This document shows positions 56,484-61,957 of a DNA stretch of 64,000 bases, one piece after another (position 1 is the stretch's first letter; each line of letters begins with the position of its first letter). Where the stretch lies: NCBI GenBank assembly GCA_009691245.1, contig SHUM01000010.1:1-64000 (forward strand). The letters run 5' to 3'. The notes beneath the pieces are model-generated. The model made no database searches. It saw nothing but the letters and a program-made list of their open reading frames with translations, and was not told the origin of the DNA. The stretch is from Acidobacteriota bacterium. GTDB taxonomy: Bacteria; Acidobacteriota; Terriglobia; 2-12-FULL-54-10. A program made the translations under genes and the position numbers.

Positions 56484-56633
56484 ACCTCCTCCCGAAGCGA
56501 ACGGCGCGTTGCGTTTCCTCGCACGCCAGCCTGCTCCGCAAAAATAGTTGGAACCGTACTCCCTTCTAGTGGCATCCTATCTATAGAGTCGGATAATCCC
56601 CGGATATGGTCCTCCGTCGTCGACAGTTTTTGA

Positions 56634-57668
56634 ATGAAGGAATTTACCATCGCGAGAATCAAGTTGCGAATACTCGTGTGTGCGGTAGCTCTGCTCGGAG
56701 GCCTCGGAACGGCCCATGCGCAGCGCGCCGAACTGCGTCCGGCCAGCCCCATCCGCCTTGCCGGAACCTCGGATTCCAATAGCCCGGTCTATCGCGCGGG
56801 CGGCAAGTTTGTGGTGTTCCAATCCTACTCGCTGCCGCTCATTGTGGAGGGGACTTCGCAGGCGGGGCCGCTGCGCGCGCGACCCGTTCTGCTCAATTCA
56901 TTCACGCATTATCCGCTGTGGATTGAATCTGTCTGGACCGATGACGACGGGACACTATTTGCCTGGTATCACCATGAGCAGTGGATTTGCAGCAGCGGAC
57001 TTTCCGCTCCAGTGATCGGGGCGCTGGTTTCGCACGATGGCGGCAATACCTTTCAAGACCTGGGAATTGTTCTCGACTCAAGCTACCCCACCGATTGCAG
57101 CGCGAAAAACGGATTCTTCGCGGGCGGGCATGGCGACTTCACCGTGCTGCTGGACGGCTCCCGCCAGTTCTTCTACTTCTACTTCACCAACTACAGCGGA
57201 CCCGCCGACAGCCAGGGCGTCGCCGTGGCGCGCATGCCCTTCTCCGCCCGCACCAGACCCATCGGGCAGGTGCGCAAGTTCTACCAAAACAATTGGACGG
57301 AACCCGGACTGAAAGGACGTCTCACCGCCATCCTGCCCGCCAGCGTTTCCTGGACCCGCACCGACACCGATTCGTTCTGGGGACCATCGCTGCACTGGAA
57401 CACCCACCTGCAACAGTTTGTCATGCTGCTGAACCGCACCTGCTGCGAGCCGGGCTGGCCGCAGGAGGGCGTTTACGTTTCCTACAATCCCGATCTGAGC
57501 ATTCCCACCAACTGGTCCGCTCCGGTGAAGCTGCTGGACCGCGATCAGGCGCGCTGGTATCCGCAGGTGATCGGTCGTCCGCCCAGCGGAACCGACCGGC
57601 TCGCTGGACGCATCGCGCGATTCTACATGGGCGGCGACTCGGACTTCGAAATTGTGTTTGATTATTAG
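56634..57668 (+). CDS. Secreted protein of unknown function, beta-propeller-like
   Basis: I do not recognise the family of this 344-residue protein. It has a signal peptide (LRILVCAVALLGGLGTAHA, cleaved near residue 29). The mature part looks like a five-bladed propeller of the sialidase or GH43-like type: YRAGGKFVVFQSYSLP, GALVSHDGGNTFQDLGI (an Asp-box-like S-H-D-G-G-N-T-F), RQFFYFYFTNYSG, LHWNTHLQQFVMLLNR, and VSYNPDLSIPTNWSAPVKLL. The SHDGGNTF segment supports a sialidase-type repeat. Catalytic residues cannot be assigned. It starts 150 nt after the polytopic membrane protein. Confidence 0.65.
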   Translation: MKEFTIARIKLRILVCAVALLGGLGTAHAQRAELRPASPIRLAGTSDSNSPVYRAGGKFVVFQSYSLPLIVEGTSQAGPLRARPVLLNSFTHYPLWIESVWTDDDGTLFAWYHHEQWICSSGLSAPVIGALVSHDGGNTFQDLGIVLDSSYPTDCSAKNGFFAGGHGDFTVLLDGSRQFFYFYFTNYSGPADSQGVAVARMPFSARTRPIGQVRKFYQNNWTEPGLKGRLTAILPASVSWTRTDTDSFWGPSLHWNTHLQQFVMLLNRTCCEPGWPQEGVYVSYNPDLSIPTNWSAPVKLLDRDQARWYPQVIGRPPSGTDRLAGRIARFYMGGDSDFEIVFDY

Positions 57669-57993
57669 GCAATTTCCGCGTCAGGACGGCAATCACGGAA
57701 ACTTAATGCAGTTGAAACGGACTGTTGCGGAGCGCATCCTGCAGCGCGGTGCCGGTGGAATCCAGGCCCCCCGACCCGGGAATTCCACCGGATATTTATC
57801 ACGCGTCCGTCCTCGCTGGGAGGCCATTGCCATGGCGCAGTGAGGGCAGATTCTGAGGCTCCAGCACCTTCAACTTAACACTGCTCGTCAGGGTACTGTC
57901 GAGACCTCAGTTTGCCTCATGGGACTTACTCCAACTGCAAGCTGATGCGCCGGCGGGTGGTGAGTCGGTTTGAAATTTCTATCATCAAATCCA
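57669..57993. other. Non-coding interval after the secreted propeller gene
   Basis: No gene is supported. CCGGTGGAAT (57752-57761) and ATTCCACCGG (57782-57791) form a 10-bp hairpin with a 20-nt C/G-rich loop but no T-tract. Coding-like frames here are short and have no homologous features. Confidence 0.5.
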
Positions 57994-58232
57994 GGCCTTC
58001 AGGCCGGGGTTGGGGATTGCATTTTATCTAGTCCAGCGCTTTAGCGCTGGGTTGGCTCGCCATTTGTCAGCCCCCTTCAGGGGGCTTTGCCGCCGGAGAA
58101 TTCCTCGTCAGTTGCCGCACGCGGCGCAAGCCCCGTAAACGGGGCTGATCGTTGTGACCGGTTTCGGCAACCCAGCGCTAAAGCGCTGAGCTAGATAAAA
58201 TGCAACCACATTCGGCGCTGAAGCGCCGAATG
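57994..58232. repeat. Cluster of six tetraloop hairpins in two opposed orientations, framed by a long inverted repeat
   Basis: Hairpins, by position and loop: 57994-58005 TTCA; 58033-58050 TTTA; 58069-58086 TTCA; 58129-58146 TAAA; 58173-58188 TAAA; 58209-58232 TGAA. The left three have TTYA loops and the right three TRAA, the reverse complement. Hairpins 2 and 5 sit in a 38-nt inverted repeat (58017-58054 with 58168-58205, a few mismatches). No spacer/repeat regularity of a CRISPR array is present. This may be a composite REP-type element or a structured RNA. Confidence 0.75.
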
Positions 58233-58451
58233 AAACAATAGACCGAAGCTCACGCGCTGGGCTGGAGAATAGCATCCACCCGGAAAATCAAACCGCCCGC
58301 TTCCCAGAGGTACATAAAGTTGCGAGGCGAGGCCCTGAGCCATTATGATGATGGATTGCAGTGGACTCGGCAGCCGGCTCTGCGCGCGGCGTATTGGTCG
58401 TGTCAACGAGTCCGCGCGGATATTCGATCAAGATTTGGCGGTGAACAGGCA

Positions 58452-59468
58452 ATGAGTGAAAGAGGCAAACTTGGCCCGAAACTGGGCCCGAAACTTGGAG
58501 TAGTTTTGTTCCAGTTGGGCGGGCCGGACTCGCTCGAGGCGGTCGAGCCGTTCCTGCACAATTTGTTTCTCGATCCCGACATCATCGACTTTCCTTTCGC
58601 CAAGTTGGCACGGCCCGTGCTGGCCAAGTTGATGGCCGTCAGCCGCGCCAAAAAAGTCGCGCACGGTTATGCCGCGATGGGCGGCGCGTCGCCCATTGTC
58701 GCCTGGACAAAAAAGCAGGCAGCGGCTCTGGAAATCGTGCTGCGCCGCGCGCCCGCAATGGCCAACGCGCGCGTGGTCATTGCCATGCGCTACTGGAAGC
58801 CCTTCACCGAAGAGGCCATCGCTGAACTCGTACGCGAACAGGTTACCGAAATTATCCTGCTGCCGCTCTATCCGCATTTCTCGAAGACCACCACAGGCAG
58901 CAGCTACAACGAGTGGAACCGCCACTTTCCCTTCTCGCCGCTGTCCAACGTGCCCGTGAAGTACATCAGGGATTATCCCGAGCACGCCGGTTACGTCGAT
59001 TGCTTCGTCACCGGCATCAATGAAACGCTCAAGCGTTTCCCCGCGCCCGAGAAAGTTCATCTGGTTTTTAGCGGGCATAGTATTCCGAACTCCGTCGTCG
59101 CCTCCGGCGATCCCTACAAGCCACAGATCGAGCAGACCATGCGCAGGGTGCTCGAGCGCGGCGGCTGGACGCTGCCCTCCACGCTCTGCTGGCAGAGCAA
59201 GGTCGGCGCGGGCCGCTGGGTGCAGCCATCTGTCCATGAAATTATTCCCACCCTCGGCGCGCAGGGCGTCAAGGACGTTCTGATCGTCCCCATCTCCTTT
59301 GTCTCCGACCACATTGAAACCCTGCACGAGATCGGTGAAGAAGTGCGCGAGGAAGCCATGCGCGCCGGCATCGAGCGCTTCGAACTGATGGACGGTCTGA
59401 ACGACTCGCCGCAGTTCATCAACGCACTCGCCGACCTGGTTCACGCGCAAGTGTCCGCCGCGGTATAA
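58452..59468 (+). CDS. hemH: Ferrochelatase
   Basis: This inserts Fe2+ into protoporphyrin (or coproporphyrin) IX in heme synthesis. The 338-residue product has the conserved catalytic His in LLPLYPHFSKTTTGSS and Glu in SFVSDHIETLHEI, plus GHSIP in VFSGHSIPNSV. ATG 58452 is chosen since the family begins near LGVVLFQLGGPDS; GGCGGTG lies about 8 nt upstream. Near the N-terminus a 12-nt imperfect tandem duplication (58471-58494) gives GPKLGPKLG. The gene follows the hairpin cluster; no other heme gene is visible. Confidence 0.93.
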   Translation: MSERGKLGPKLGPKLGVVLFQLGGPDSLEAVEPFLHNLFLDPDIIDFPFAKLARPVLAKLMAVSRAKKVAHGYAAMGGASPIVAWTKKQAAALEIVLRRAPAMANARVVIAMRYWKPFTEEAIAELVREQVTEIILLPLYPHFSKTTTGSSYNEWNRHFPFSPLSNVPVKYIRDYPEHAGYVDCFVTGINETLKRFPAPEKVHLVFSGHSIPNSVVASGDPYKPQIEQTMRRVLERGGWTLPSTLCWQSKVGAGRWVQPSVHEIIPTLGAQGVKDVLIVPISFVSDHIETLHEIGEEVREEAMRAGIERFELMDGLNDSPQFINALADLVHAQVSAAV

Positions 59469-61865: not shown

Positions 61866-61957
61866 CGTTGCGGCTACTATCTTGCCGCCCCTGCCGGGGC
61901 TACGAAAATGCGGCATTGTATCTATGACAATGGCCTGCACGCAAAGGAACCTTCGCT

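Follow-up and report, generated by a model that had tools for sequence, protein, structure and literature searches.

A gene-less array of six mirrored hairpins next to hemH in an Acidobacteriota bacterium: a probable copy of Y1 transposase locus ends nested in a MITE

The window, that is, the whole stretch of 64,000 nucleotides analyzed here (positions 1 to 64,000 of contig SHUM01000010.1, assembly GCA_009691245.1), contains a composite unit of 349 bp (57956-58304) situated between two genes of the plus strand. The upstream gene (56634-57668) matched no Pfam family, and the downstream one (58452-59468) encodes a ferrochelatase (hemH; PF00762, E 1.6e-105). Read from left to right, the unit comprises a TIR, three hairpins, a spacer, three further hairpins and a second TIR. 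The six hairpins occupy 57991-58232, nearly the interval (57994-58232) given in an initial annotation made from the letters alone; the unit as a whole extends further than was claimed there. All six are GC-rich and carry tetraloops, TTCA, TTTA and TTCA followed by TAAA, TAAA and TGAA. The left arm (plus strand) includes the outer hairpin H1 (57991-58008; CCAGGCC-TTCA-GGCCGGG, one mismatch), the REP-like middle hairpin H2 (58033-58050; CCAGCGC-TTTA-GCGCTGG) and the inner hairpin H3 (58069-58086; AGCCCCC-TTCA-GGGGGCT), and the right arm (minus strand) includes the inner hairpin H4 (58129-58146; AGCCCCG-TAAA-CGGGGCT, its loop being TTTA on the minus strand), the REP-like middle hairpin H5 (58171-58190; CCCAGCGC-TAAA-GCGCTGAG, one mismatch) and the outer hairpin H6 (58209-58232; CATTCGGCGC-TGAA-GCGCCGAATG). 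As also noticed initially, H2 and H5 lie within a 38-nt inverted repeat, whose left arm (58017-58054, plus strand) holds TTGCATTTTA, the foot and H2, whose right arm (58168-58205, minus strand) includes H5, and whose two arms are 95% complementary. The stems had been described as all different, which is incorrect: H2 and H5 have their stem in common, and those of H3 and H4 both read AGCCCC[C/G]. A survey of the feet of middle hairpins located an outward CTAG on each arm (58028-58031, plus strand; 58191-58194, minus strand), at the place where most other arrays carry GTAG. The spacer between the inner hairpins (58087-58128) corresponds to the position of the Y1 gene in transposase-bearing arrays. 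Perfect hairpins with stems of at least 6 and 4-nt TTYA/TRAA loops number five within 200 bp, vs. 0.25 expected across all 64 kb when the window is modeled as an order-2 Markov chain, and when perfect tetraloop hairpins with any loop and the same minimum stem were counted, the largest cluster in 60 simulations had four; thus, the array is not a product of chance.

The genome was searched whole, selected stretches of it were read, and a single genome of the same genus (G001, 82% complete) was used for comparison. The window region has ten other matches in its own genome (including the one to its own reverse strand), and several of these flank a Y1_Tnp gene on contig C8 (C8:67315-67737). This locus carries essentially the hairpins of the window, matching them in stems, loops and order: CCCAGCGCTTTAGCGCTGGG and AGCCCCCTTCAGGGGGCT lie on one side of the gene and AGCCCCCTGAAGGGGGCT, CCCAGCCCTAAAGGGCTGGG and AATTCGGCGCTGAAGCGCCGAATT (the counterpart of H6) on the other, and the TTGCATTTTA of the left 38-nt arm adjoins the middle hairpin there too. 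Both at C8 and on contig C86 of G001, hairpins of the CCCAGCGCTTTAGCGCTGGG, AGCCCCCTTCAGGGGGCT and ATTCGGCGC types are arranged as mirror images around a Y1_Tnp gene, the G001 array consisting of 3 + 3 hairpins with an imperfect left outer one. Altogether, four Y1_Tnp genes of the own genome (HUH, IS200 superfamily; C18, C8, C56 and C46) are found inside mirrored arrays, with three hairpins per side where complete; the three arrays other than that of C8 have other stems, the C18 gene being intact and those of C56 and C46 apparently broken. A fifth gene (C2) codes for another kind of Y1 protein and has other hairpins, and no array was seen around a sixth (C80). The C8 transposase gene contains an in-frame TAG, so that its present-day activity in this genome appears doubtful; its G001 counterpart is intact. 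This cognate transposase occupies the same place in both species (L015 and L043), between apparent xanthine-dehydrogenase-type oxidoreductase subunit genes, and the 3′ end of its coding sequence reaches into the inner hairpin. The locus had initially been regarded as matching no known element type; it is in fact organized like the REP/BIME arrays that surround Y1 transposase genes. It had also been suggested that the hairpins serve as a site for some structure-specific protein, and finding the same hairpins on both sides of a Y1 HUH transposase gene makes this plausible by inference.

The gene-less array of the window is not unique: arrays of this kind recur, and its six hairpins make up one copy. 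Five cognate gene-less arrays occur in the own genome (C1, C4, C6, C12 and the window), together with one arm on G001 contig C154; the inner hairpin is present in six own-genome arrays, among which only that of C8 has the gene. A second type, GCCCC-NNNN-GGGGC (GCCCCNNNNGGGGC), reaches 52 copies in the own genome vs. 3 for the reversed control, and forms about ten gene-less arrays. The ten clusters of this type that were read share one order (outer, middle, inner, then the spacer, then inner, middle, outer); C6:11222-11425 and C66:1303-1506 retain it in full, and the rest have partly decayed. A partial right arm of a GCCCC-type array is also present in the window itself (61869-61901; CGGCTACTATCTTGCC GCCCCTGCCGGGGC TACG), just past a recN-like gene. 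In this sense, the initial idea of a mobile hairpin family holds, with further copies in the genome and an empty site in the sister species (see below); the annotation would have abandoned it had there been neither genomic copies nor conservation in relatives, and copies do exist and the arrangement does recur in relatives.

The outward foot of the middle hairpins in the other arrays is GTAG in 25 of 32 cases and CTAG in the remaining 7. The array family thus has the outward GTAG foot of REPs, the window copy bearing the less frequent CTAG on both arms, and it also shares with REPs the presence of many dispersed genome copies, at a moderate copy number. GTAG at the outward position defines the larger REP superfamily (PMC3733652); it takes part in recognition by TnpA_REP enzymes and in their selection of the cleavage site, and CTAG reduced cleavage but still allowed it in one tested REPtron (PMC8266576). 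The arrays resemble the REP/BIME/REPIN systems with RAYT, or “REPtrons,” in their short GC-rich hairpins of opposite orientations with a GTAG foot, which surround a Y1 HUH transposase gene and are also dispersed without it (PMC3733652; PMC3116915; PMC8266576). The Marinomonas REP loop is TTTA, as in the window, and loop reversal severely affects cleavage in the Stenotrophomonas REPtron (PMC8266576). On the other hand, the arrays described here have three hairpins per arm, and their transposase is of the IS200 class (Y---Q--HH) and scores below the REP_Tyr_transpos cut-off (42 vs. 80 bits).

The G001 transposase shows the HVH, WQ and Y---Q--HH motifs (Pfam Y1_Tnp, E 2e-22) and matches the solved structures of IS200-family TnpA 2xm3 and ISHp608 TnpA 2a6m. 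Two intact proteins were tested against NCBIfam: both exceeded the 55-bit cut-off of transpos_IS200 (68.9 and 78.5 bits), and with REP_Tyr_transpos (cut-off 80 bits) the cognate protein obtained 42.1 bits and the C18 protein had no match. Membership in the RAYT group (TnpA_REP, class 2) was discarded on this score and on the absence of the YI..NP motif, in whose place YIDDQEEHH is found. A class-2 RAYT does occur at L019:820-1431 (G000:C2; REP_Tyr_transpos, 116.9 bits), flanked by GGCACGG-type hairpins, and hairpins similar to these carry CGTCAGGGCACG ends elsewhere. To our knowledge, CGTC-tagged REPs have been published as having no transposase. Class 3 of TnpA_Y1, with about 600 hairpin copies in Solibacter usitatus, is similar in that acidobacterial Y1 genes are flanked by several atypical hairpins with many dispersed copies; among the features cited from its description, NHVH, W[TA], YV[VI][AENY]EQ and a CnGA foot fit none of our proteins or feet, and membership was rejected (PMC6006769). 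The TIRYT/TIRtron elements of Acidobacteria likewise combine acidobacterial Y1 genes with inverted-repeat flanks, some of them repeated in the genome, but by description their long TIRs are unrelated to GTAG repeats, whereas the arrays considered here consist of GTAG/CTAG-footed hairpins (PMC3733652).

Proteins of the C8 transposase kind were found in 58 of 151 genomes of the class (E ≤ 1e-10), nearly all proteins having DHVH, WQ and Y---Q--HH. Judged by motif rather than by tree, these transposases carry the signature of TnpA_Y1 subclass 1.2 (DH[IV]H, WQ, Y---Q--HH, ~148 aa), with which they share DHVH, WQ, YIxxQxxHH and a length near 150 aa (PMC6006769). That subclass comes mostly from Cyanobacteria and Bacteroidetes, and the entry for REP in Table 1 of the source is “no” (PMC6006769); by contrast, the genes described here belong to Acidobacteriota and have flanking hairpin arrays and gene-less copies. 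At least two hairpins were present on each side of the gene in 14 of 25 loci read, and at least three in 7; hairpin density was 7.9 per kb within ~250 bp of these 25 genes and 1.4 per kb at distances above 500 bp. For the longest hairpin, the most frequent outward tetramer was GTAG (11 loci), with no common one on the inward side. As in the window, the loop type on one side was often the reverse complement of that on the other. Thus, the published trait of lacking REP or terminal hairpins does not extend to these loci, most of which have hairpins on both sides: transposases with subclass 1.2 motifs, published without REP hairpins, are hairpin-flanked here and in many relatives, which is new.

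The array of the window is enclosed by inverted repeats of another kind. The left TIR (57956-57979, plus strand; GGTGGTGAGTCGGTTTGAAATTTC) matches the family consensus GGTAGTGGGTCAGTTTGAAATTTC at 21 of 24 positions (0/500 shuffles as good) and is the sole consensus match within the window, and the right TIR (58283-58304, minus strand; GGAAGCGGGCGGTTTGATTTTC) is a degenerate inverted copy (6/500 shuffles as good), so that both ends are TIRs as expected of a DDE-type MITE. Allowing up to three mismatches, we counted 34 copies of the consensus GGTAGTGGGTCAGTTTGAA in the own genome and 42 in G001, vs. one per strand for the control; these copies often form inverted pairs 80-270 bp apart with differing interiors. 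In 23 TIR pairs, 8-bp target duplications were detected (118 of 184 flanking bases match vs. 54 expected; 0/2000 permutations as good), and among lengths from 2 to 12 only 8 bp was significant; in the window copy a target duplication is not recognizable, the 8 bp being a property of the TIR family overall. Inverted repeats together with duplications of fixed length are the mark of DDE-type MITEs. Given its TIRs and the 8-bp duplications of its family, the enclosing unit is probably a DDE-type MITE; the family resembles such elements in its ~20-bp TIRs, target duplications, size of 80-350 bp and lack of genes, and differs from them in that its interiors are filled with various hairpin repeats and no parent insertion sequence was found. 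Many TIR units enclose an abundant palindromic repeat, TGTCATCCTGAGCG...AAGGATCTGC (L094, L096, L114-L118, L120, L122-L124, L133), and three units (L099, L103, L107) hold nested hairpins, where ACGTCAGGGCACGACTTYAGTCGTGCC may form a single closed hairpin or be interrupted by additional hairpins.

The same-genus genome supplies the empty site. On G001 contig C149, 27 nt lie between the matches to 56600-57941 and 58318-59468 of the window (~90% identity); what is missing corresponds to the unit delimited by the TIRs, and both flanking genes are kept. Since the gap agrees with the ends of the element, we infer an insertion at the hemH locus rather than a deletion in G001. No outgroup with both flanking genes in the arrangement of the window was found, G003 having been discarded for their other relative orientation. 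At the G001 sites of the C4, C6 and C1 arrays no corresponding array was seen, and the flanks there have diverged too far for breakpoints to be placed. The absence of the enclosing unit from the site of the sister species indicates that the array is mobile DNA, not a gene or a conserved RNA.

In our opinion, the array very probably copies the ends of a Y1 (HUH single-strand) transposase locus in a non-autonomous form that lacks the gene, and it is nested in a MITE. Each end comprises an outer hairpin, a middle hairpin with the outward GTAG/CTAG foot and an inner hairpin, all with one loop orientation; the other end is its mirror image, with the gene of transposase-bearing copies between the two inner hairpins. 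When the locus becomes single-stranded (e.g., as lagging-strand template), a Y1 enzyme would bind those hairpins that present loop and foot in the proper orientation (three of the six on either strand), would use the foot as a guide to the cleavage site, and would mobilize the array in trans, following the model put forward for REP/BIME elements. The CTAG foot of the window, in place of GTAG, the single mismatches in H1 and H5 and the in-frame TAG of the C8 transposase gene count against this reading. The insertion at the window locus need not have involved a Y1 enzyme, since the stretch that the sister lacks has TIRs, not hairpins, at its limits; the event was probably the gain of the composite 349-bp unit between the upstream gene and hemH by a DDE-type transposase, although no such transposase was found for this unit. 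A likely history is that a Y1-recognized REP array lost its transposase and was carried to the hemH locus within a DDE-type MITE.

It is also possible, although we would not favor it, that the array is a mere passenger, the DDE-type MITE being the mover here and generally and the likeness to Y1 ends being history without function. In the sister, the TIRs are included in the gap; TIRs of this kind also enclose, on at least one side and as far as the sides are readable, four of the five gene-less cognate arrays in the own genome (C1, C4, C12 and the window) and the arm on G001 C154; and TIR units with significant 8-bp duplications hold several unrelated hairpin cores. However, 9 of the 10 GCCCC-type arrays, the C6 array and the C8 transposase locus lie outside these TIRs, so the MITE is not needed for arrays to occur and spread, and a TIR pair 2.7 kb apart (C1:161981-164696), considered as the parent element, showed no evident transposase gene when its ORFs were read. 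Less probable still is a full element that reached the window locus and had its Y1 gene deleted in place: the match to C8 in stems, loops and order would agree with it, and part of the spacer is similar to the C8 transposase gene leader (local alignment p = 0.004 before correction for 24 tests), which is suggestive only of a remnant; nonetheless, several other gene-less arrays have similarly short spacers, more easily explained if the gene-less form itself spreads, and the enclosing MITE would have had to bring the gene in. A functional structured RNA, as the initial annotation had guessed, or a regulatory element of the flanking genes (e.g., a hemH stabilizer, terminator or attenuator) is highly improbable, for despite a very stable predicted fold (301-nt region, -164.3 kcal/mol, z = -11.5), an intergenic position between co-directional genes and the presumed partial action of REPs elsewhere as RNA elements (PMC3733652), the window has no Rfam match at the gathering threshold, the unit is not conserved at the orthologous locus of the sister and the same kind of array recurs at many unrelated places.

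Under the preferred reading, that of a gene-less copy of Y1 locus ends within a MITE, one unit nests two kinds of small mobile DNA, and the array points to a probable DNA substrate for a subclass of enzymes that previously had none. REP sequences, which would derive from IS200-like elements, rank among the most frequent repeats in bacterial genomes. We consider the chances evenly balanced that the Y1 transposases with subclass 1.2 motifs in Acidobacteriia are the enzymes of a REP system of their own, with up to three mirrored hairpins per end and a GTAG-footed middle one, and represent a living intermediate between IS200 and REPtrons. In this sense, the combination of IS200-class motifs with GTAG-footed, REP-like arrays would be a candidate intermediate between IS200-like elements and REP.
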